The translations under genes and the position numbers were made by a program. Below are positions 25,211 through 38,875 of a stretch of 38,875 bases of DNA, piece after piece. Under the pieces are notes generated by a model. The model was not told where the DNA came from. It was given only the letters and a program-made list of their open reading frames with translations, and made no database searches. Each line of letters starts with the position of its first letter. Positions within the stretch are counted from its first letter, which is position 1. The DNA comes from Methanobacteriota archaeon (GTDB lineage Archaea; Thermoplasmatota; Poseidoniia; Poseidoniales; Poseidoniaceae): positions 1 to 38,875 of the forward strand of contig PAOW01000029.1 of NCBI GenBank assembly GCA_002710015.1. The letters are read 5' to 3'.

Positions 25211-25870
25211 TTACAGACCTAGATACGGGCGTAAGTCAGCTAGATCATTTGAGTTAACAACTGGTATTCCAGCATCAGCGAATGCCTTCTTTGCGCTATC
25301 TCTTTGTGGGTTGAATCCGATAAATGTTGAACCATCAACATACATGGACAGATCCATACTAGAATCGCCAACGCACACCAACCTTTCAGGCGGACATTCC
25401 AATATGCCCAACAATTTGTGAATTGATGTATATTTCTCCATCGAAGGTACTCTGACTACTCCCTCGTCCAATAGCCAACCATCATCATCGAACTCAAATC
25501 CATTAGCAATCCAATCATCAGCTTTAACCATCGCCGCAATGGACTGAACATAAATATCAACACCAGCAGAGACTATTGCTACATGCACTCCGGCAGCTTT
25601 CAGGTCGGCTACTATTTCTTTTGCACCTTTCATTAGTTTACAACCCGAAAAGGCTCTGAAAATATCATCCCTGTGTATCTTGGGAGAGACTTCCTTCCAA
25701 AGCGCAATATCAGCGGCCATAAATTCGGCATCCGTCATTTTACCAGCCATGAATTGCTGTAACATATCTTTGGAATCAGTACCAAAGTGGTCATGGATTG
25801 TTTTCCATGAAGAAATAGAATCTGCTAAAACACCGTCACAGTCGAAAGCAACGCAAAGCGGCATCTCCAT
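25211..25870 (-). CDS. HAD-family phosphatase, phosphoserine-phosphatase-like
   Basis: This 219-residue cytoplasmic haloacid dehalogenase-type phosphatase has complete motifs. Motif I is FDCDGVLADS (nucleophile Asp10, acid Asp12), motif II is IVSAG (Ser101), motif III is a Lys in MEKYTSIHK, and motif IV is GDSSMD (Asp169, Asp173). An alpha-helical cap lies between motifs I and II (about 18-80). The order and cap resemble SerB-type phosphoserine phosphatases, but substrate specificity cannot be fixed from motifs alone, so no symbol is given. The ATG at 25870 has GGGGAT about 5 nt upstream and a TATA-like box about 35 nt upstream. An in-frame Met is two codons later. Confidence 0.85.
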   Translation of the reverse strand: MEMPLCVAFDCDGVLADSISSWKTIHDHFGTDSKDMLQQFMAGKMTDAEFMAADIALWKEVSPKIHRDDIFRAFSGCKLMKGAKEIVADLKAAGVHVAIVSAGVDIYVQSIAAMVKADDWIANGFEFDDDGWLLDEGVVRVPSMEKYTSIHKLLGILECPPERLVCVGDSSMDLSMYVDGSTFIGFNPQRDSAKKAFADAGIPVVNSNDLADLRPYLGL

Positions 25871-26080: not shown

Positions 26081-29000
26081 TCACAGGCTGGACCAGGTTC
26101 TTAGAACAGATCCAGAGCCAGAAGGTGGCACGTAGCTTATTGACACGTATATGTTGCTGAGAACATTTCCGTCTTCGTCAACTGCACTGATATAGATTGT
26201 ATCTCCAGTATCAAAGCTTGACTTCACAGCTCCACCCTCGCTTCCAACAGCGTCAGTGAATGTCACTAGACTGTCAGAGTTACCTGGATAGAATCCATAT
26301 ACTGTCGTATCTGCTAGGTTATACTTGTTGCTAATAGTGTCTCCATTAACATCAGAGTATTCCATAGTTACTACAATTGCCTGTGTCGCTAGTTCAACTT
26401 GGCTTCCAGTTACCGTGATTCGGTGGAACGCTTCACTACCATCGGTAATAGCGGACGAATCAACATCGAAAGTCATCCTTGGCACACCCTTTGCAGATGT
26501 GTCAGCTAGACTCGATGCCCAGACGTAAATTACACCGGACAGAACAACAGTGATCGCAACCATTAGGATAGTTGCAATTACTGGGCTCACCGCTTGCTCA
26601 TCAGAGTCAAGAGTCATCTCTTCTAGAGATTGCTCTTCTTCCTCTCTGCGGCTTTGTAGAACCAAAGCGCTGACGAACAGTCCTGCTGCACTTATTGCTA
26701 TGATTGTTGGTGCGAACGATGGGACGTCAGCTGTTCCAATCAATCTAACAACAGTTGGTAGGTTTTGTCCAGACGCTTCGGTAGTCTTACCGAATGTGCG
26801 TGGTTGTGCACAGTCTGTTCCGTTGTCATCGGTGCTCATCAAGTTGTTACACCAATCTTGGTCTTCTAGCATTGGTCTTCGCTTGTTCTCTAGTGTGATT
26901 GCTGATGGGTTACCATCTTCATCAACACTGGATGAACCAGACTCACCAGGACAACTCCATGCTTCTCCTTGCTCTCCGTTACTGTCGATACATGCGTGTG
27001 CGTGTGGGAACGCATATCCGAAGAAGCGATCTTCTGGAGTTGCGGTCATGTCACAAGCCTCGTCAACACATGTCAATACATCAACCTCGACCCAAATCTT
27101 GTTGCTTGTGGAGGTTATGTATACGAAGTCAGTAACTTCGAGTGTCTCTCCGTAAGCAGGTGGGACAACATATTGTGTTCCTAGAGTGACGTATTCGTCA
27201 CCTGTTGGGTCATCGCTGTTGTATCCGTTACTGTGGAAAGTAACCTCTAGCATGTGGTCGTAGTTGTATGGACCTTCATCGCCACCGTGTCCAATTGTTA
27301 CAGTTGTTGGAACAAATGTCTTCGGCATGATGTTGGTGACTTCATTGTAGTTGAAGCCAAGCTCAGAGTCTAGGTAGTAGTCTGGCACATTCTCTGCGAC
27401 GTTGTCAACACGGACATACAGTGTAACACTGTCTTCACCTTGCTGATAGTTAGCAGTTGGCATATCGTAGTTCGGTATGTAACTTGGCGCTGTTGCAGTG
27501 TCATGTAGTTCCAAGGTTATCGGACAGAATTCACCGGATAGCGGGTTCTTCTGATGGATACCACCGTTGTTCAGATAATCAACTTCCCACTCAGGAGCAT
27601 TTGTTGTTGCGTCCTTGATTAGGTCGAATGATATATCGTCACCATTGATGGTAGCAGCGAAGTAATCCTCATAGTTACATGTGTCAGTCTTGACAATTGT
27701 CCAGACAAGGTCATTGTCCTCATGGTCATTGTCGTGCTTCATAGCAGACAGATCGTAGGTCAAGTTGTCAACATTCTGGTCATCTTCTGTCAGAGTAATC
27801 TTCCATGGGAAGTTCGGAACATCTCCGTTGCCATCAGATATTACAACACCTGCCTGGCGATCCCACTCAAGGACCTCAGGAGCGTCGTTCACTGGAGTGA
27901 CTGAGAAGTTAACTTCGAAGTTTTGTGCATCGACGTTCTCATCTAGCCACTCATAGCCTAGACATACATCCTCTGTGTATCCAGTTGGTGTTCCATCCGC
28001 TAGGAATTCAGGTATCAATCTGTTTGTGTAGAGGTTGTAACATCCAGTAACAGCAACTGTCACACCTGGAGCGACCTGGTATGGGTAGTTGATTAGCCAT
28101 GTGTATCCAACACAAGCTGCTCTAACATCCGCAGTTCTTCCTAGGTATGTGTTTTGACAGTATCCACCATCATCTTTCAGAGTTAGGACGATAGTACACT
28201 CGCCACCAAGCTCATTGGCTGCATTCTCAGTGATTGTCAACTCATTGTTCACAACGGTTACAGTAAACGCTGGACATGGATCATATCCACCGGTTGTTGT
28301 ATATCCGTTAGGGAATATTTCGTCCCATGTTGTGTCGAATGATGTAACATCAATTCCGAATGCTTCTTGCCAGAATAATGTGTAGTTCAGACTCTGGTAA
28401 ACCTTTGCGTTAGCATCGATTGTGCTGTCACATCCGTCATCAGAGCGAACTGCTGTAACCTTGTTACCGCTTGAGTCCATGTATTCTTGATACCAGACAG
28501 ATCCACAGCCGTTCTGTGCAAGCAGGTATGTTAGCAGACCAACATCGTTCAGAGTTGGTAGAACATATGTTCCGTTAGGCGATATGCTTGATGGGTCTCC
28601 AGTCATTGCAATGTCTTGGAATCCACCAAGTGCAGTAACTGCATCTCCAGCTTCAGCGAACATTGCTGCAACGCTGTTATACTTCTTCTGGACCCAGTAT
28701 GGTTCTACTGATACATCCTCTGACTTGATTGATGCACCCCATGTGTAAACCTGAGGTTGCTCGTTAGCCATGTCGTTGCTTGCCATGTCGATTACATAGG
28801 AACCGGTTGCGTTAGCGGCAGATCCTAGGACCTTGCTGACACTTCCGAATCCTTCATCCAGGACGTTCAAGTTTCCATCACCATCATCTGCAAAGACTGG
28901 CATACAGTCTGTGCGCTCTGTGTTACAGATAATCGGTGCATCGTTAACATTCAGAACATTGAATGTTATTGTAGCACTGTCTGTCAATCCGTGGCTGTCT

Positions 29001-32000
29001 TCAACACCGAAGTGGAACACATACGAACCGAATTGATCGTTATCTGGTGTAATGGTCATTGTCTGGCTAGATAGACCGCTGTCCAGTAGCATTGTTGGGC
29101 TCAATGACGGGTCTGTGTCATCAGCGACAGTCCATGTCAAGGTGTTCTCCTCATCTTGGACATCATCTGCCTTGTCAGTCAGTGTCAAAGTGTAAGCACC
29201 ACTGTCTTCGTTGACTGTGATGTCTACCAAGTTCTGAATAACTGGGCAAGCACGCTTGATGTCAATTGACTCAGCGACGTTTGTGCTCATATCGACTGAA
29301 GTTATTGTTCCCCAATCCTCAGCACACGGTGCATCAACCTTGACTGATATGTCGTAGGTCTTTGCATCGCTTGGAGTGTTGGATCCAACATAACTTCGGT
29401 AGATTAGCAAGTGGTTTCGCAAGTCATCGCCTTCAGCTAGGTCACCGTGTCCCATAAGCAGAGTTAGCTCGTCAGTGAAAGTTTGTCCTACTGAACCAGT
29501 TGCAACTGTCTGATCTGGGTGGACCGACTGAATAGCTCCTGTCGATTCATCCTGAACGATTACAATCATTCTAACTGTGCTGCTTGGCTCACCGATACAA
29601 TTCCATGGAATTGCAATTTCAGTGTCAGTATCGCTAGAGTGGCCAATGTATGATGACAATCCCGAACAGGAGTTTGTCACATCAGACCATCCAGTGAATC
29701 CGTTCACCTTCAAACCAGAGTTCTGTGAGCTGCTTCCATCCTCTGCCCAGAAGACATAGTCTGCTGCGAATGGCAGAGAGTGAGAGACATACCAACTGTC
29801 ACCAGTGGTGTCTCCACCTGTGCTGGAATCGATGTAAATCTGCAAGTCAGCAGATCCCATGTCAACACCAGTCAGTGCTAGGTATAGGTTGTTAGCGTCC
29901 CATGTAGCTAGGAAGTCTTCTCCTGCGTCATCACTTGACATTACACCTGGCATTGCATCGTCAGATGGGTTCTTTACGTTACCATACCACTCGTCTAGAT
30001 CGCCGTCAGCGGTCATGAATGGTGCTCTGTAAGCTGGTGAGACATATGCTGCTTGAGCACCGTCTGTTGATTGAATCAACAATCCGATGTCAGTTGCAGA
30101 ACCACCCTTGTGGGTTACGTCTAGGTCCAACAAGTTACCTTCGTGGACAACAGCAGTTGCGTCTATAACCAACTTCGAAGCATCAACTGTGTTACCAACT
30201 GATGTCACTGTGGTGTAGGAACCAGCGTGTATCTGTGTAGTAGAGTCTGCCCATGTGACATTCTCGACTGATCCTTCAGCGCCACCATCTGCTAGCAGAG
30301 ATGTCGTTGCGTCAGAGTCGCCGCCATTCCAGCGGAAGTCAACAGCGTCTATGTTTAGACCATACTGTCCAGATGTGTCCATGTCAGTAGCATCGAAGCT
30401 CGATGTTCCGGTTACATACATTGCAGATCCTGTTGTATCTGCAATAAGTGATGCACCATCTACTACAACATCTGTGTCTTCTGCATAGGCTGCATATTCG
30501 CCGCCTGACAGTAGTGCGTCACCCATAAGGGTCATAGAACCGCCAAACTGCTCGATTGCAGTTCCGTATCCTGAAACAGATGTTCCGTCTAGTGTGATTT
30601 CATCAGTTGTTCCAACGACGTTTACACCAACAGAAGCGAATCCTGAACTTGTCGAATTGCTTACTGTTATGGAACCATACATCCATGTGTGTATTCCACA
30701 GTGATACTCGTATGTTCCTGCTGTGTTGAAGGTTTTCAGGTATGTTGAACCAATGTTCATAATCGATTGTGCAGAACCTGAAGACCACAGTGGGCTTCCT
30801 CCAGCATCAGTATCATTGGATTGAACGTTGTGTCCGGAGTTGGTATTGTTCCAGTATTCAACAGATCTCCAGCGAACTGTGTCGCCTGTGGAAATTGTCA
30901 GGCTAGATGGCGAGAATACATCAGATAGCATTCTAACTGTGTAAACTGCTCCACCTGCGCCACCACGAGCGGTTAGCGTAGATCCTTCGTCAACTAGGTC
31001 GCATCCATCGGTAACAATCGAGTTCTCCATTGTGCTGATTGTGTTTCCACCAGTGTTGATTACTGATGAACCACAATCTTCAGCCCAAATTCCAACTGCA
31101 GCAGGAGCGTTCCTGCCAGTGGATTGAGAGATATCGTTGTTAGTTACATTAGCATTGTAACCGAATTGGATTCCATCAACTAGAATTCCTCCATCAGCGT
31201 CGACCAAGGTGTTTCCATCAATTTCACCATATCCGTTGAGGACATAGATACCAGCGTTGGAAGAATCTCCATCACCAGTTATTGTGTTTTCACGAATGTC
31301 CCAATCAAGCGCGCCTCTTAGATAGACTGCTCTTTGAGCATTCTCAATGGTATTTGATTCTACCAACATGTCAGTTGCTGTTCTATCTTGAGCATAGACT
31401 GCGTATGTAGGCATCGATGAACCTGTGAACTCATTGTTCCTAATCTCAGCACCTTCTGTGTAACTGTTTAGCGTGAACCAAATAGCTACGTGTCCAACAT
31501 CAACGAACTCATTGTTCTCAATTATGGCATCATCTGCACCCCAGAATGACTGGGCGTGATAATAAGTAAATCCAGTTCTTCTGAGAGACAATCCAACACC
31601 ACAATTCTTGATCACGTTGTTCATGATTGTTGTGTTGTTACCGCCAGCATTCAAACAGTGATACTGTAACGCTTGGCTACTGATATCTCCAGGGTTGTGG
31701 AATGCAGTCAGGGTGTTGTTCTGAATGTTGAAGAAGTCAGCTTCCCATGGGGATGATCTCCAAGTATACTTCGGTCCGAATGTAGTAACGATTGTTGCCA
31801 ATCCAGAGATTGTAGAATTCTGGATATCTGGAACAACATCGTTCCATCCGTTGTATCCAATCTTGATACCTTGGGCATCACCGTCGTCAACTGCTAGAGA
31901 AACCCACTCTGTGTTGTGAGCTTTCATTCTTGCACCATACGGTGAAGTTGACCAGAGCTGCATTGCATCATCGGAGTTTCTTGCACCTGTGACTAAGAAT

Positions 32001-35000
32001 GTGCTTCCGTCAAAGGTGTTGTCTGTGTCTCCGTCAATATACCAGATACCTGTGTCAACCATGACAACCTTGTTCTGGAAACTCTGTGGTGTTGCACCAT
32101 AGTAACCATACTCAACTAGACCTGAGTTGTATGTTCTTGATCCACTTGTTGACAGGTAACCTGCACAGCGATCTAGATTGTTATACGAACTAGAAGTGAA
32201 GCTGTAACAGATACGAGCGTCAACTGAATCGGTAAGATCCATGTTGTGGGTGTTACCTGGTGAGTCACTCAGACTTAGGTTGTCGAATGAATACCTGAAG
32301 TCACCCGAGTTTGTGCTTGGGTTAGAGTAACTGTAAGTTCCAACCTTTGACACAGTAACCGCTTCGTATCCTGCAAGGCTCATTGTTGTAGTGCCAGCAG
32401 AATCAATCTTTGTGGTTACGAATCTCATGTCAAGAGCATCTCCAGATGAGTCAGTGACGGATGATCCAGTCATCTCCCCTTGTGCATTCTTCAAAATGAC
32501 GTTAGCACCAGAGACAGCGTTAGTGTCTGCGACGACGTTAATGTCAACTGTTCGCATTCTGCTGAACAATCCGTTTCCAGTTACGGAAACAGATGCTGTA
32601 TCAACGGTTCCCTCTACGAAGTTAACGCTCGCAGATCCGGTAATCAAAACATCTTGGCTGTTGCCGAATGTGCTGTCAATGACATCTATTGTTCCACTTC
32701 CAGCAGTTTCGATACCTATTGCATTGGTTGCTAGGTTCATGTTACTGTAACTAATATCGTTGGTTGTTGCAGAACCGAACTTGATAGCTGAACCCGCAGA
32801 GCTAGCGATTGTTCCAGATAGTTCACCATTCATATTCTTGATGTAGTATACACCAGAACTTGATGTTCCAGAAATATCGACGTTTGATAGGTCAACTGTT
32901 CCAGATGCACCAGCACCTGCCAGAACACCGTATGTTCCGCCTGTTACTGTCAAATCAGTTACTGTTGCTGCTGCTGATCCAGTTATTTCAAGACCGGAGG
33001 TAACCGGGCTTGTGACTGTAATGTCATCTAGTTCAACTGCTGCGAAGTTGCCTCCGACCTCAATACCATTGTCAGCACCGGTAATTGTTCCGCTGCTGAT
33101 TGTAGGAACTCCCGATTCACGAGCGAAAGAACCTAGGTCGCTAGGGTCGTCTCCAGCTCTAGCTACGATTTCTAGTCTGTCTTGATAGTTGTCTGCACGG
33201 TTGTGTAGAACGTCAACATACAGTTTCGCACTAGCGATGCTTGGGTCTGAAACATCCACAATAGGGAATGTTAGCCTTGCATCGTCACCAGGACTTGTGT
33301 AGTAACTGTATGCGTATGCGACACAAACGTTGTAGTATCCAGTTAATCCCTGTGGAGGGGTGTAAACACCGGAATACATCCAACTTGGGCTGTATTGACT
33401 CCAGTATTGTATTGGATAGTTGCCACTTGGAGTGTTGTCAGTTGCAACCCAGTCGAAACCTGCTGGTTCACGATATGTGTAACCCCAGCCTGCTGGGCCA
33501 TAGCTGTATCCATATGTATTACAGTTGTAAGATGCCGGATACTGGTAGTAACCAGTCATTGCTGAATTGGTTACGTTCCAAGAGTTTCCATCGGTGTCTG
33601 TCAATTCAACATTCAAGTTGTCTGTTATCATGTAATACTTCGAAGTAGCATAATTGTATCTTGGGTGAGCGTTACCACCTGCATAGACTGCATTCCATCC
33701 TACTTGCAAGTAGTCGGAATCTCCCATGTATGTGGTAAGATCGATTGCGTAGGTTGTCCATCCTGTGCTCTCACCAGACAATCTTGGGCTTCGGTATATT
33801 GTTGGTAGGCTCATACTTCCCTCAACATCGATACCGACATCATTGTCTGTAAGTGTGAATCCATCAACAGTTGGCGCTGAGTTTACCATGTGCATTCCGA
33901 CTGCTGCATTCTTGACAACAATGTTGTCAACATCTGCTGTTGCGGATTGTTCAACCATTAGACCGATACCGGTTTGACCGGAGTTCATGATGGTTGAATC
34001 GTCCCAATCTAGGACACCACCGTTGACATGCAGTGTTGCTTCATCAGCTGCAGCTCCGGAGTTTCCGTAAATCGTAGCAGAGTTAGATACTGTCATGACA
34101 CCAGAGTCTAGATTGATTCCACCTAGAACGTCCATAATTACACCACCGTCTACTGCAAGGTTACCGCCATCGATATCCAAGAGTAGTGGATATGTGCTGG
34201 ACGAAGCCTTCAATGTTCCAGTGTCGGTTGCTGTTGACTCGAAAGTCAAAGAACCACCATCAGAAATTGTTAGTTTCGGGCTGTTAGTAGCATCTGATGC
34301 AACTCTGAACACACTTCGCATGACAATATTACAATCGTCAACGTTTAGGTCTCCAGTCATTGTAACCTTTCCTTCCCATGTGTATGTGTTGGTTCCTCCA
34401 GATGCGATTGATCCGTCATAACCTAGTATAGCGTCAGGGTTTGTTAGTAGGTAAGCACAATCCATGTTGGTTCCGTTCAATGTGACTGGAGCTGGTTCAA
34501 GTCTCAACTCGATAGTGTCTCCAACCTCAAAGCTACCTGGATACCAAGAATCGGTAACCATAGTTTCATTCTGACCTGATGGTCCAAACGCTACTAGGTT
34601 GTGGTCAGAGTATGTGTCTCCAGCATCGTTTGCTGTTAAGACCCATACACTCGCTTCACCGTTTGCATCGGTTTTGTGAGTTCCTACCATGAACATTGGT
34701 GATCCCGCATCAACTGCGGTCGCTTGAACTGTGTGCCCTTCCTTGTAGTCCTTACCACTTGGAAGTAGCTTGAACACCTTGACTGTTGCTAATCCACCGA
34801 AGTAGATAGCACCAGAGGAACTGGAAGATACATCACAATCTGAAGCGCTCTCACAATCCGAAGAAGTTCCTGATGAGTCAATTTGGTTGACATCAATCAA
34901 GATGATTCTTCCGTTTGTGGAAGCCTTAGCCATCTTGTCGTATGATGATGGCATTGTGACGCTTCCTTCTCCGATTGTTATGCCAGAGTTTCTTGCATAT

Positions 35001-38000
35001 AGCGCATTCATAGTTCCAGTGTAGGTTGCAGTAACGTCTGACAGCATTATTGTGTTAGGTGCTGCAGAGTTAGAACAAGACCCTGCAACGTAATCTGTTG
35101 TTACAGTGTCTATTATTACCTTGTATCCACATCCTGAGACTGATATTCCATCTGTATCCCAGTTAGATCCGAGGATTCCAATGTTGCTTGGAGAGTTTCC
35201 TAGGATAGACAACTGACCAATAGTAATGTCATCCATTGTTGGTGCAATTCTTGTCATTGTCAGATCATCAGATTCAAAGTTGCTGATTACTGCGTTGTCG
35301 CCGGAAGGTCCAGCAGCAGTAGATGAACTACCACCAGGCACGATGCTAACATCAGCACTTCCCCAGTCGACATCTCTTAACTCGACTGAGTCTAGAGAGT
35401 TGATTGTTGCATCAGCATAGCCATCAGCATTCATGTTGAATACGTATGTTGACGAGCCTGTTCCTGCACCTGCTGCTCCTAGAACAGTACCAACCTGCGT
35501 AGAGGTTGTTGTTGCTGTAACGTTGCTCATCCACACTGTAGCGAAATCAACGTCTACTAGGTTAACCATAGAATCATCGATATCGATATTCTCCATGACT
35601 AATGCGCCAGCAGTTGAACCAGGGTAGTTGATGACCGCTCCACCCCAACTGTTTCCGTTGGAGTTACAATCGTTCATTTCACCGTCTCTTAGAGTGACTA
35701 CTGAATCTTCAGCTAGATCGAAACAAGCATCACTTGCATCGTTTATCTCAAAGTCGCTCATTGTTAGGATTGTTCCTTGACCAGAACCGTGCTTGAAGGC
35801 TGTTCCTACATTGGTAAAGGTCACGTGATCCATGGTAAAGTTACCAACGTTAGCATTGCTTGATGGTGAGTTACCGTGGCGGCTTCCAGCAGCTATTGCG
35901 GCGTCGCTGGTGTTCTTGAAATCAACATATGACATCTCGTGTCTGTCGTCAGTTCCTGAACTGCACGCTGCTGTGAACGCAAGTCCCTTCCAGGTTGCTT
36001 GTTGCTGTCCTTCGAATACAACAGGGTCTGTTGCATTTCCTTCAGCAGTAAATTCACTGCATGTTCCATCGAATGACAATCCTTTACCAGGAGCTACCTG
36101 AACAACAGTTCCTGCTTCGATTGTCAAATCAGCACCTATGGATAGGTATCCGCTGGCAGAGCTTGGATTGACTCTGATTGGAGAGTCAATCTTAGACCAT
36201 GTTGTTGGCTGGGTAATATCTGCACTTATGTCAGTTCCCTTACCTTCAAACGGAATTACTCTTGTTCTAACTGAACAATCAATGTTAGTTGTGTCATAGC
36301 AGTAGTAACTAGAGTAGTATCCCCACCATGGAGCAATGTTACCTGGCTTGCTGTATGAGCTGCTGCTGTATGGCAGGTTTGGCATGTTGCTGTACCATGA
36401 TGTGATGGATCGCTCTAGAGCTGTTGAACCATCGTCCTTTAGATACATGTTACCCATTCTACCGATGTGAACACGGTTCTTTGAATCAGAACCATTGTAT
36501 TCCTTTCCAAAGTATTCGAAAACAAAGTCATCAGGTAGGTCTATGTTAGCACTGCATCCGGATTTGTATTGGTTCCAATAATAGTTAGAAACACAATAGT
36601 ATCCATATGGTTGACCATTGCTGGCACCAGATATTGCAGTGTCATAGGTAGGCAGCTCAGTTAATCCCATGTCGAAGGTTTCCCATGCGTGTCCACTGCT
36701 GTCAGTGCTAATTCTGTAATTAGCAGAGTGTGGGTTAGCGCCATTTAGGTAACCTGCGGATGTTCTAACAGTTGCTCCCTTGGTTCTTGTTTGGTCTTGA
36801 TAACCAACAGTAGCGTAATCATATGTGGCTTGACAACCAGAGTCGTAATGGAATTCAATCTCATTTGTGACATCATACATTATGACTTGGTAAGTACACT
36901 GATATGTGGATGTGTATCCCATGTCATGCCATTCGACAACAAACATCTTGTTTGGATCGCCAACTTCAAATGAATTGGTCGATGTTGTGTTTGTGTTTGT
37001 TCCAGATGCAGCTGTGCTGGTATCCTTGACTGTTATGTAATATTCAACAGATGAGCCACGCTCTAGGTCTTCCAGATCAGCGCTCCAGTCACACTTGACT
37101 GTTGCACAAGTTGTTCTCTGTCCAGATGGAGAGAGAAGGGTGCTTTGCCAGTTGTTGACGGTTCCGTCTGCATCCGTGACACGGTAATACAAAGTCGGTC
37201 CAACACCAACGGTTGTGCTTGTGTTTATTCCGGTTGGAGGTTCTCCACCATCTGTTATTCCGAACGTGAAGGTTCGGTCTCTTGAGTGAGAATCACGCAT
37301 TGCAGAGTGATCAACAAGAGGTGCAGTGGTGTCTGGCTCTGGAGCAACTTTCGCTACCTTGTATAATACACCGCCAGTGCTTGCAATCGGGCTGTAATAT
37401 CCTCCACCTAGGGAGAATCCTGACCATCTGTAGCTTGGACTGTAGATGTAATAGTAAGATGATGTGCAAGTTGGGTTGGAACTTGTAGATCTAAAGAAGT
37501 AGAACCAACCGTTGCTACCAACACACATCCAATTTGACTTAGAAGTGCTGTAAGTAGCATTCCATTCAAACTCACCGAATGATCCAGTTATATCTCCAGG
37601 GATGTCAACAAGGTATGCCTTGGTGTATCCATATGTAGATCTGACATTTGGTGAAGTTCCGGATGTCAAAGGCTCTTCGATTCCAGTATCAGTTCCCAAT
37701 CCTACCATTGCCCACTGTTTCTTAGTGGAATCATATAGGAATATTAGGTTCATTCCTGGTCCATCATCAGCAGACATTGTCAAGTAACCTCCTGCGTCAG
37801 CAGAGTGAAGGTTAGTTGTATCTACAACAGTGCCGCCCATTCCGTTGTATCCGGATGGGACAGTAGAAGTCCACTTTACCTTCCACTGGGAGTAGAAGTA
37901 GTAGCTACTTGTGTAGAAACAGGAACTGCTTCCAGTTCCACATGCTGATGTATCGAATTCGAAGACATATTCTTCTGAATCTTCGTAGTAAGTCATTTGG

Positions 38001-38875
38001 CGATCGAAGTTTGGTGACGCGCTTGTAGATGTGTAAGCACGTGTATCTGTTAAAGATACTGTCATCTTCTTGTCATCGCCAGCGTTTGCTGCGTCATCAA
38101 CAAAGAACCAGTATGGGCTTGCTGGGGCAGATGCTGTGCTCGGTGTTCCAGATCCGCCAGATGGGCTTGTCCCCAAGTTGGGAGTTGAGGCTAGGTCCCT
38201 GTATGCCCAGAAATACTTGACATAATCTCCAGTTGATATGCTACCTGTAGAAGCACGGAATGAACAATCTGTCGCTCCGCTGCCACATGTGCCAATGCTT
38301 GTAGCCTTGACAGCTGTGTAGGATCCATTGTTTATGGAGTAGTGCAAGTGAGGTGCACCCGAAGATGTAGTATCTATACCACCGTTGTCCTGTAGGTTGG
38401 TGAAGAATGTTCTCTCGCCTTCCTTGTAGGAGGTGATTCCGGTGTAAGGTACGAATCCATCAGTAGGAGGTGTTGTATCAGATCCTCCTGAGTATGTAAC
38501 CTGTATGTAGCTCATCGTAGTTCCTGTGTTGTAGGAATAGTAGTAGATTGTGCTGCCTACTGGGTACTTTGCACTCATACCAATAGTTCCGCCATTGTTT
38601 ATTGCACTTACAACGTAGTTGTGGCTACCTGTTGACGAGGAACATGCTGTTCCGCTGCTGCTACATAGGTTTGCAGTCTTCCAGCCGGTTCCTGTTGAGT
38701 AGGTTCCCGCTGATGCTGAGTTGCCCATTGAGCTAATCATCTGAAGTGCCGCTGTGCTACCATATCCTGTTGTTAGGGTTGTAAGAGCTTGGCTCGAACA
38801 AGTAGCTGATGCAACTGTCCATGAGTATCTGGATGCAGTTCCACACTTCTCCATTACTGTTGCAGTTATTGAAGA
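26081..38875 (-). CDS. Giant beta-helix surface protein with cupredoxin domain and C-terminal pilin-like module, 5' partial
   Basis: The frame is open to the right edge, so the protein exceeds 4,260 residues and its N terminus is missing. Numbers count from the Met at 38854. Domains in order: Ser/Tyr/Cys-rich beta modules, two of them repeated after DTTPP/DTTAP (about 126 and 508); parallel beta-helix from about 900; a carboxypeptidase-regulatory-like domain (about 1350-1450); more beta-helix to about 2620, with NosD/PbH1-type coils such as IENNEFVDV. A cupredoxin domain (about 2637-2735) follows, then further beta-helix, a CBM9/DOMON-like domain (about 2947-3136) and cadherin-like modules (about 3211-3305 and 3650-3780). 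A TM lies at about 4046-4065, then an acidic loop and an archaeal pilin-type helix (about 4088-4116) with a 140-residue tail. I infer a cell-surface protein for adhesion, glycan binding or copper/redox chemistry. There is no internal stop or frameshift. Confidence 0.88.
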   Translation of the reverse strand, partial: SSITATVMEKCGTASRYSWTVASATCSSQALTTLTTGYGSTAALQMISSMGNSASAGTYSTGTGWKTANLCSSSGTACSSSTGSHNYVVSAINNGGTIGMSAKYPVGSTIYYYSYNTGTTMSYIQVTYSGGSDTTPPTDGFVPYTGITSYKEGERTFFTNLQDNGGIDTTSSGAPHLHYSINNGSYTAVKATSIGTCGSGATDCSFRASTGSISTGDYVKYFWAYRDLASTPNLGTSPSGGSGTPSTASAPASPYWFFVDDAANAGDDKKMTVSLTDTRAYTSTSASPNFDRQMTYYEDSEEYVFEFDTSACGTGSSSCFYTSSYYFYSQWKVKWTSTVPSGYNGMGGTVVDTTNLHSADAGGYLTMSADDGPGMNLIFLYDSTKKQWAMVGLGTDTGIEEPLTSGTSPNVRSTYGYTKAYLVDIPGDITGSFGEFEWNATYSTSKSNWMCVGSNGWFYFFRSTSSNPTCTSSYYYIYSPSYRWSGFSLGGGYYSPIASTGGVLYKVAKVAPEPDTTAPLVDHSAMRDSHSRDRTFTFGITDGGEPPTGINTSTTVGVGPTLYYRVTDADGTVNNWQSTLLSPSGQRTTCATVKCDWSADLEDLERGSSVEYYITVKDTSTAASGTNTNTTSTNSFEVGDPNKMFVVEWHDMGYTSTYQCTYQVIMYDVTNEIEFHYDSGCQATYDYATVGYQDQTRTKGATVRTSAGYLNGANPHSANYRISTDSSGHAWETFDMGLTELPTYDTAISGASNGQPYGYYCVSNYYWNQYKSGCSANIDLPDDFVFEYFGKEYNGSDSKNRVHIGRMGNMYLKDDGSTALERSITSWYSNMPNLPYSSSSYSKPGNIAPWWGYYSSYYCYDTTNIDCSVRTRVIPFEGKGTDISADITQPTTWSKIDSPIRVNPSSASGYLSIGADLTIEAGTVVQVAPGKGLSFDGTCSEFTAEGNATDPVVFEGQQQATWKGLAFTAACSSGTDDRHEMSYVDFKNTSDAAIAAGSRHGNSPSSNANVGNFTMDHVTFTNVGTAFKHGSGQGTILTMSDFEINDASDACFDLAEDSVVTLRDGEMNDCNSNGNSWGGAVINYPGSTAGALVMENIDIDDSMVNLVDVDFATVWMSNVTATTTSTQVGTVLGAAGAGTGSSTYVFNMNADGYADATINSLDSVELRDVDWGSADVSIVPGGSSSTAAGPSGDNAVISNFESDDLTMTRIAPTMDDITIGQLSILGNSPSNIGILGSNWDTDGISVSGCGYKVIIDTVTTDYVAGSCSNSAAPNTIMLSDVTATYTGTMNALYARNSGITIGEGSVTMPSSYDKMAKASTNGRIILIDVNQIDSSGTSSDCESASDCDVSSSSSGAIYFGGLATVKVFKLLPSGKDYKEGHTVQATAVDAGSPMFMVGTHKTDANGEASVWVLTANDAGDTYSDHNLVAFGPSGQNETMVTDSWYPGSFEVGDTIELRLEPAPVTLNGTNMDCAYLLTNPDAILGYDGSIASGGTNTYTWEGKVTMTGDLNVDDCNIVMRSVFRVASDATNSPKLTISDGGSLTFESTATDTGTLKASSSTYPLLLDIDGGNLAVDGGVIMDVLGGINLDSGVMTVSNSATIYGNSGAAADEATLHVNGGVLDWDDSTIMNSGQTGIGLMVEQSATADVDNIVVKNAAVGMHMVNSAPTVDGFTLTDNDVGIDVEGSMSLPTIYRSPRLSGESTGWTTYAIDLTTYMGDSDYLQVGWNAVYAGGNAHPRYNYATSKYYMITDNLNVELTDTDGNSWNVTNSAMTGYYQYPASYNCNTYGYSYGPAGWGYTYREPAGFDWVATDNTPSGNYPIQYWSQYSPSWMYSGVYTPPQGLTGYYNVCVAYAYSYYTSPGDDARLTFPIVDVSDPSIASAKLYVDVLHNRADNYQDRLEIVARAGDDPSDLGSFARESGVPTISSGTITGADNGIEVGGNFAAVELDDITVTSPVTSGLEITGSAAATVTDLTVTGGTYGVLAGAGASGTVDLSNVDISGTSSSGVYYIKNMNGELSGTIASSAGSAIKFGSATTNDISYSNMNLATNAIGIETAGSGTIDVIDSTFGNSQDVLITGSASVNFVEGTVDTASVSVTGNGLFSRMRTVDINVVADTNAVSGANVILKNAQGEMTGSSVTDSSGDALDMRFVTTKIDSAGTTTMSLAGYEAVTVSKVGTYSYSNPSTNSGDFRYSFDNLSLSDSPGNTHNMDLTDSVDARICYSFTSSSYNNLDRCAGYLSTSGSRTYNSGLVEYGYYGATPQSFQNKVVMVDTGIWYIDGDTDNTFDGSTFLVTGARNSDDAMQLWSTSPYGARMKAHNTEWVSLAVDDGDAQGIKIGYNGWNDVVPDIQNSTISGLATIVTTFGPKYTWRSSPWEADFFNIQNNTLTAFHNPGDISSQALQYHCLNAGGNNTTIMNNVIKNCGVGLSLRRTGFTYYHAQSFWGADDAIIENNEFVDVGHVAIWFTLNSYTEGAEIRNNEFTGSSMPTYAVYAQDRTATDMLVESNTIENAQRAVYLRGALDWDIRENTITGDGDSSNAGIYVLNGYGEIDGNTLVDADGGILVDGIQFGYNANVTNNDISQSTGRNAPAAVGIWAEDCGSSVINTGGNTISTMENSIVTDGCDLVDEGSTLTARGGAGGAVYTVRMLSDVFSPSSLTISTGDTVRWRSVEYWNNTNSGHNVQSNDTDAGGSPLWSSGSAQSIMNIGSTYLKTFNTAGTYEYHCGIHTWMYGSITVSNSTSSGFASVGVNVVGTTDEITLDGTSVSGYGTAIEQFGGSMTLMGDALLSGGEYAAYAEDTDVVVDGASLIADTTGSAMYVTGTSSFDATDMDTSGQYGLNIDAVDFRWNGGDSDATTSLLADGGAEGSVENVTWADSTTQIHAGSYTTVTSVGNTVDASKLVIDATAVVHEGNLLDLDVTHKGGSATDIGLLIQSTDGAQAAYVSPAYRAPFMTADGDLDEWYGNVKNPSDDAMPGVMSSDDAGEDFLATWDANNLYLALTGVDMGSADLQIYIDSSTGGDTTGDSWYVSHSLPFAADYVFWAEDGSSSQNSGLKVNGFTGWSDVTNSCSGLSSYIGHSSDTDTEIAIPWNCIGEPSSTVRMIVIVQDESTGAIQSVHPDQTVATGSVGQTFTDELTLLMGHGDLAEGDDLRNHLLIYRSYVGSNTPSDAKTYDISVKVDAPCAEDWGTITSVDMSTNVAESIDIKRACPVIQNLVDITVNEDSGAYTLTLTDKADDVQDEENTLTWTVADDTDPSLSPTMLLDSGLSSQTMTITPDNDQFGSYVFHFGVEDSHGLTDSATITFNVLNVNDAPIICNTERTDCMPVFADDGDGNLNVLDEGFGSVSKVLGSAANATGSYVIDMASNDMANEQPQVYTWGASIKSEDVSVEPYWVQKKYNSVAAMFAEAGDAVTALGGFQDIAMTGDPSSISPNGTYVLPTLNDVGLLTYLLAQNGCGSVWYQEYMDSSGNKVTAVRSDDGCDSTIDANAKVYQSLNYTLFWQEAFGIDVTSFDTTWDEIFPNGYTTTGGYDPCPAFTVTVVNNELTITENAANELGGECTIVLTLKDDGGYCQNTYLGRTADVRAACVGYTWLINYPYQVAPGVTVAVTGCYNLYTNRLIPEFLADGTPTGYTEDVCLGYEWLDENVDAQNFEVNFSVTPVNDAPEVLEWDRQAGVVISDGNGDVPNFPWKITLTEDDQNVDNLTYDLSAMKHDNDHEDNDLVWTIVKTDTCNYEDYFAATINGDDISFDLIKDATTNAPEWEVDYLNNGGIHQKNPLSGEFCPITLELHDTATAPSYIPNYDMPTANYQQGEDSVTLYVRVDNVAENVPDYYLDSELGFNYNEVTNIMPKTFVPTTVTIGHGGDEGPYNYDHMLEVTFHSNGYNSDDPTGDEYVTLGTQYVVPPAYGETLEVTDFVYITSTSNKIWVEVDVLTCVDEACDMTATPEDRFFGYAFPHAHACIDSNGEQGEAWSCPGESGSSSVDEDGNPSAITLENKRRPMLEDQDWCNNLMSTDDNGTDCAQPRTFGKTTEASGQNLPTVVRLIGTADVPSFAPTIIAISAAGLFVSALVLQSRREEEEQSLEEMTLDSDEQAVSPVIATILMVAITVVLSGVIYVWASSLADTSAKGVPRMTFDVDSSAITDGSEAFHRITVTGSQVELATQAIVVTMEYSDVNGDTISNKYNLADTTVYGFYPGNSDSLVTFTDAVGSEGGAVKSSFDTGDTIYISAVDEDGNVLSNIYVSISYVPPSGSGSVLRTWSSL
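26084..26617 (-). other. Archaeal type IV pilin-like module fused in frame to the giant protein
   Basis: From the ATG at 26617 the frame would read as a complete 178-residue prepilin. It has a short acidic leader (MTLDSDEQ), then AVSPVIATILMVAITVVLSG and VIYVWASSL. This matches the N-terminal hydrophobic segment of archaeal pilins (Pilin_N/DUF1628 type), including the SPVI motif after the presumed cleavage site. About 140 beta-rich residues follow. No stop codon separates it from the giant protein, whose own transmembrane helix ends about 15 residues earlier (QSRREEEEQSLEE). It could be a true fusion, a processed polyprotein, or a pilin also made from the internal ATG. No strong Shine-Dalgarno element is seen before that ATG. 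Confidence 0.75.
29450..30016 (-). other. CBM9/DOMON-like domain inside the giant protein
   Basis: The segment begins TADGDLDEWYGNVKNPSDDA and continues with FLATWDANNLYLALTGVDM, LQIYIDSSTGGDTTG and TEIAIPWNCIG. This is the pattern of carbohydrate-binding module family 9 and related DOMON-like beta sandwiches, which bind sugars or heme at the cell surface. It is about 190 residues long and follows the last beta-helix stretch. Ligand specificity cannot be told from sequence. Confidence 0.6.
30654..30945 (-). other. Cupredoxin (plastocyanin/halocyanin-like) domain inside the giant protein
   Basis: The domain opens with FSPSSLTISTGDTVRWRS and closes with GTYEYHCGIHTWMYGSITV, the two hallmark strands of plastocyanin-like proteins. 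All four type-1 copper ligands are in place: His2675 (SGHNV), Cys2719, His2722 and Met2725, with C-x2-H-x2-M spacing. The roughly 100-residue length fits a single small blue-copper domain. It interrupts a run of parallel beta-helix coils and lies outside the membrane. Expected roles are copper binding or electron transfer at the cell surface. Confidence 0.85.
31030..31840 (-). repeat. Parallel beta-helix (PbH1/NosD-like) repeat block in the giant protein
   Basis: Successive coils of roughly 20-25 residues carry the pattern (I/V)xxN-x-(I/F)-x-(D/N/G) and alternating hydrophobics: IMNNVIKNCGVGLSLRR, IENNEFVDVGHVAIWF, IRNNEFTGSS, VESNTIENAQRAVYLRG, IRENTITGDG, IDGNTLVDADGGILVDG and VTNNDISQSTG. 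This is the asparagine-ladder signature of right-handed beta-helices found in surface adhesins and polysaccharide-active proteins. No catalytic residues of a lyase were identified. The block ends directly before the cupredoxin domain. Confidence 0.75.

Follow-up and report, generated by a model that had tools for sequence, protein, structure and literature searches.

How a giant archaeal surface protein comes to end in a complete prepilin-like sequence, and whether the pilus system still reads that end as a pilin, are the questions raised by this locus. The window (the whole stretch of DNA analyzed, 38,875 nucleotides) holds a minus-strand frame that is open from the window edge down to a stop at 26081; on its own contig the gene runs from 40078 to 26081 on the minus strand and encodes 4,665 amino acids. 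In a hydropathy analysis of the full protein three hydrophobic segments stand out: the N-terminal signal (residues 9-36), TM1 (residues 4452-4477, VPSFAPTIIAISAAGLFVSALVLQSR) and TM2 (residues 4494-4525, EQAVSPVIATILMVAITVVLSGVIYVWASSLA). The parts follow in the order signal peptide, ectodomain of about 4,450 residues, TM1, acidic loop of about 18 residues, TM2 and pilin-like head. The preliminary description had placed a prepilin-like sequence behind a C-terminal anchor in the same frame, and this stands; its ectodomain of about 4,065 residues becomes one of about 4,450, since the start of the gene lies beyond the window edge. The features are as follows.

26081 to 38875, minus strand: window part of the giant surface protein gene (open frame; homology extends along almost the entire protein in both families compared).
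26726 to 27397, minus strand: membrane-proximal (juxtamembrane) ectodomain, a beta-sandwich in the model (conserved in the alignment; structure model; adjoins the same head in short paralogues).
26648 to 26725, minus strand: TM1 (hydropathy; conservation, mean entropy 0.94 bits).
26591 to 26650, minus strand: acidic loop ending in D-E-Q-A, predicted to be cytoplasmic (alignment; start-codon count; P1-P6 composition).
26504 to 26590, minus strand: TM2, the pilin N-terminal helix VSPVIATILMVAITVVLSGVIYVWASSLA (matches to Pilin_N and TIGR02537 exceed their cut-offs; mean entropy of 0.05 bits across 80 sequences).
26084 to 26503, minus strand: linker and pilin-like beta head (AlphaFold2 model; nearest solved structure a Cuniculiplasma filament).
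25211 to 25870, minus strand: HAD-family phosphatase adjoining the giant (synteny in five other genera; PF12710 and PF00702), not claimed as a member of the system.

The edges of TM1 carry an invariant V-x-S-F-x-P on the outside and SRR on the inside (VPSFAP…SRR). Archaeosortase processing of this VPSFAP-TM-RR segment found no support: the segment had no NCBIfam match, archaeosortase PF09721 had no match in the window's genus and only sub-threshold ones in family f2, and no other SFAP anchors were found among the own-genome ORFs examined. Within the loop lies a candidate prepilin peptidase site, after Ala and between 26591 and 26590; the pilin module, Ala followed by VSPVIATILMVAITVVLSG, starts at 26593. 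The class III signal begins at residue 4496 of 4665 and is not N-terminal in its own protein. A profile search recognized one cupredoxin and one Ig-like domain in the giant of the window's own species, which may be an adhesin. The cupredoxin domain (PF00127; 30662-30919 of the window, minus strand) has an apparently complete type-1 copper ligand set (H…C..H..M); it is also present in the family f2 giant of genome G096 and was not detected in the giant of G036.

The pilin identity of the C-terminal module was examined in several comparisons. TM2 matches Pilin_N (PF07790) at 40.6 bits (E 6.5e-10) and TIGR02537 (arch_flag_Nterm), both above their curated cut-offs, which bears out the archaeal type IV pilin signature first read from the sequence; a Pilin_N or arch_flag_Nterm profile was likewise above its curated cut-off in all 42 homologues searched. 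The Gly, Ala or Ser expected at -1 before a hydrophobic stretch of about 20 residues is Ala in 115 of 115 giants, and the stretch itself is invariant. In free-standing prepilins of related genomes a nearly identical stretch follows a short leader (M…NDEA followed by VSPVIATILMVAITVVLAGVLYVWASSLA), and by sequence the nearest solved chain is the Pilin_N protein 8fj5 (E 1.8e-7). In an AlphaFold2 model of the tail (mean pLDDT 75.9, the helix at low confidence), the best Foldseek match was the subunit of an archaeal Cuniculiplasma filament (E 7.6e-4, with TM-scores below 0.5); the model also resembles archaellins, with modest scores. A 438-residue model places two helices between two beta domains, with TM1, the loop and part of TM2 at low confidence, and its fold search returned mostly uninformative multi-domain matches.

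The distribution of the join was investigated in 146 genomes, comprising the window's own and its relatives in two families of one order (Poseidoniales; 22 genera). Two queries flanking the join, the 420 residues upstream of the pilin and the 134 residues of the pilin head, converged on the same open frames: the former had matches in 86 genomes and the latter in 87, and the frames were spread over 15 of the 22 genera. The match to pilins is therefore not a chance one, a conclusion that also follows from the near-invariance of the 21-residue stretch in protein while its DNA varies. Frames that are not cut are typically 4,500-4,700 residues long, and one of them lies in a one-contig genome of 2.06 Mb (G036). 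Named GTDB records, which stem from many projects, assign the carriers to Candidatus Poseidoniales (Marine Group II). Giants of the two families are homologous over nearly their whole length at about 32-37% identity, and their gene tree broadly tracks families and genera, with moderate support for the family split (81/89) and a long branch for genus g5. The giant of g5 is only about 2,500 residues long, and essentially only its C-terminal 570 residues, comprising the juxtamembrane domain, TM1, loop and pilin, align with the window's protein; the end therefore behaves as a module to which other ectodomains can be attached. Among 390 sampled genomes of the phylum, the complete join was seen outside the order in nothing but one divergent contig-edge ORF from another family (L239); its plan is PSFAPS-TM-RR-loop-A followed by VSPVIAIILMVAITIVLAG, and its loop is basic.

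A second clade of giants was also observed (L081, G077:C9; L099, G071:C28; L103, G079:C76), with SVASFAPS at TM1 and frames of 5,146 and 5,478 residues where uncut. G077 holds both clades, which points to duplication.

Gene order around the giant is kept in the five other genera examined: an FtsX/MacB-type permease, a surface protein of about 1,000 residues, the giant and the HAD phosphatase, with the DNA polymerase II small subunit nearby wherever the compared stretch extended that far. In the window's own genome, the conserved cluster just upstream of the giant (C29:40645-49080, or L134:646-9081, minus strand) comprises a LolD-like ABC ATPase, an FtsX/MacB-type permease of 1,453 residues and a surface protein of 1,057 residues, for which a Pfam search gave no match. 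This cluster is a possible export or extraction partner of the giant.

Conservation within the module is highest in the pilin helix. Over 80 homologues, mean entropy was 0.05 bits per site in the pilin stretch (21 residues, counted from the Ala at -1), and 0.94 in TM1, 1.76 in the loop, 1.77 in the head and 1.92 in the ectodomain. Among 83 copies of the 21 pilin codons there were 79 DNA versions, with nucleotide divergence of up to 35%, and only 5 protein versions, indicating purifying selection on the protein rather than on the DNA; constraint at the DNA level was ruled out as the cause, since synonymous sites vary. To judge from this pattern, TM2 is kept more tightly than would be expected of a helix that is an anchor and nothing more.

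The machinery that could read such a helix is encoded in the same genome. A prepilin peptidase (G000:C18:4719-5687; PF06847 above cut-off) carries both catalytic-Asp motifs, DHKDRRVPN and GGADCK; a pilus ATPase and two platform proteins lie on contig C20, and the archaellum operon is on the giant's own contig. The cognate peptidase, assembly ATPase and platform protein are thus all present. The 15 genera with Pilin_N matches are the same as those with giants, and giants occur only in genera that have both a prepilin peptidase and Pilin_N pilins. The peptidase was found in 15 of 15 giant genera vs 2 of 7 others, raw genus counts that include shared ancestry, and the archaellum also needs the peptidase. 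Since TM2 is near-invariant and practically identical to the helix of free prepilins, and the peptidase and pilus machinery are at hand, TM2 is probably still read as a pilin by the pilus system.

Our tentative preference is that the giant is a secreted surface protein whose C-terminal module is a functional type IV pilin, that the loop is cut, and that a pilus is thereby docked to the giant. The giant would be exported until TM1 stops in the membrane; the loop would lie on the cytoplasmic side, and TM2 would re-insert and place the head outside. A/VSPVI (the slash marks the candidate cut) would then be offered to the prepilin peptidase at the cytoplasmic face like the site of a free prepilin, and the peptidase may cut within the loop, perhaps slowly because the charge at -2 is missing. 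By means of its unchanged helix the freed pilin could assemble alongside ordinary Pilin_N pilins, its head meanwhile staying bound to the juxtamembrane domain; the outcome would be a pilus, or a pilus base, held at the giant. On this reading, the class III signal would be an internal one, and one secreted polyprotein of about 4,600 residues may give rise to a giant and a pilin in a one-to-one ratio, which remain paired and link the pilus to the cell surface.

That the two outer domains could hold together after a cut accords with short paralogues of about 450-700 residues (L121-L125), in which the juxtamembrane domain is joined straight to the head, TM1, loop and TM2 are absent and there is no pilin helix. 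After the head these proteins have a linker and then, where complete, mostly an ordinary C-terminal anchor (L124 and L125 are possibly cut). A distant relative, L255, keeps the TM-loop-TM-head plan without SPVI. On the strength of the direct pairing in the short paralogues and of L255, the two domains are most likely located outside the membrane and have repeatedly been combined, and they probably work there as a pair.

The candidate site itself gives evidence both ways. Among 115 giants, P1 is always Ala, P3 is Glu or Asp in 113 and P4 is Asp in 109, whereas P2 is free. This conservation around a free P2 would be more easily explained by a protease. The charged -2 (P2) residue, described as critical for archaeal prepilin peptidases (review, PMC4371748), is found in 14 of the 115 giants vs 32 of 38 free-standing prepilins (Fisher p 3e-16 on raw rows and 4e-8 on distinct leaders, neither a true probability given the shared ancestry of the rows). 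The window's giant has Gln there in place of the charge of a class III signal peptide; Gln or Ala at -2 also occurs in a few free-standing prepilins of the order.

The missing charge is an argument for a reading that is only slightly less likely, namely that the hairpin stays uncleaved: the pilin module would remain covalently in the giant, its helix would dock with free pilins at the filament base or sideways in the membrane, and the giant would anchor or nucleate the pilus. The short paralogues, which pair the juxtamembrane domain and the head covalently, are consistent with this, as is L255, whose hairpin without SPVI means that a hairpin can exist without the site; the frozen TM2 fits pilin-pilin packing as well as peptidase recognition. 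However, the kept Ala and acidic residues around a free P2 remain easier to account for by a protease, and pilins normally need cleavage before assembly (PMC10191384). The preliminary description had offered a two-helix hairpin and a cut by prepilin peptidase in the loop as separate options. The data are consistent with either; the topology of a hairpin is well supported, and the cut has the kept P1, P3 and P4 and the frozen helix in its favor and the missing -2 charge against it. We lean slightly toward cleavage.

It is unlikely that the module is a decayed pilin, that is, an old fusion whose TM2 does no more than anchor the chain a second time and whose head just adds an outer domain, neither of them in contact with peptidase or pilus. 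The head does diverge about as fast as the ectodomain, and the paralogues use it without any pilin helix; however, TM2 is almost invariant while TM1 drifts, and the giants are confined to genera with prepilin peptidase and Pilin_N pilins. Much less likely still is separate translation of the pilin from an internal start at 26617 (leader MTLDSDEQA), the third option proposed earlier: an in-frame ATG is present in the loop of 57 of 83 homologues, but 18 of the 83 have no ATG, GTG or TTG there, and neither the loop sequence nor the position of the Met, including the ATG at 26617, is conserved, so that a general mechanism of this kind does not hold. That an assembly artefact or a local missed stop makes the join is hardly credible, although the window's own genome is a draft (41 contigs, 82% complete), because the same in-frame join recurs in full-length frames of dozens of independent assemblies, the one-contig G036 and many named projects among them, and with kept gene order, which excludes an artefact as well as the suggestion that the parts might always be separate genes in homologues; the comparison of homologous giants proposed earlier found the join in 15 Poseidoniales genera of two families.

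Among planktonic archaea of surface waters, Poseidoniales are reported to be the most abundant (PMC6461757). Their attachment has so far been inferred mainly from archaellum, thrombospondin and flotillin genes, and one conserved gene now joins a giant surface protein to a pilin. Judging by this gene, a link between giant surface protein and pili would seem to be built into Marine Group II cells, and an adhesin may be coupled to the pilus; if so, the most abundant planktonic archaea of the ocean would have their pili physically linked to the cell surface. All prepilin leaders described in the literature cited here are at the N terminus of their own protein, which counts against a cut in the loop. 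Reviews assume that pilin signals stand at protein N termini, and rule-based finders such as FlaFind rely on this; the giant runs counter to it, and internal pilin modules would be missed. The gene is also a test case for whether an internal loop can serve as substrate of a prepilin peptidase.

In comparison with known systems, the module shares with archaeal type IV pilins of the Pilin_N/PilA type (PF07790, TIGR02537) the class III stretch A/VSPVI…, the hydrophobic helix and, as modelled, the beta head; unlike them, it is C-terminal in a secreted protein of 4,665 residues, follows a further TM and in most giants has no charge at -2. In the open-access literature no description was found of a pilin module preceded by a secreted giant and a second TM. 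Giants with a single C-terminal anchor (archaeosortase or S-layer-like) have in common with it a signal peptide, a very long ectodomain and a TM followed by RR, but they end at that TM, whereas here the chain goes on and passes back into the membrane as a pilin. PilY1/PilC-type pilus adhesins and archaeal DUF2341 tip proteins (PMC4858521) are, like the giant, large surface proteins with a proposed link to type IV pili; they are encoded by separate genes without a pilin module, and a domain profile search found no PilY1/PilC-type or DUF2341 domain in the giant. N-terminal pilins with large C-terminal cargo occur in the same order, with domains assigned by eye: L240 and L241 (701 and 720 residues) with long added domains, L242 (370 residues) with a lamin-tail-like end, and L243 (491 residues, contig-edge) with a phosphate-binding (PstS-like) domain. 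Modular pilins, for instance PilB and PilC of Streptococcus sanguinis, also combine a pilin module and a large functional domain in one chain (PMC8179133; the largest cited has 860 residues). In modular pilins, however, the pilin stands at the N terminus and bears the grafted cargo on its C-terminal side; in the giant this order is reversed, the cargo coming first and a membrane hairpin lying between. If internal cleavage is true, the giant would represent a new kind of system, beyond the modular pilins already known.
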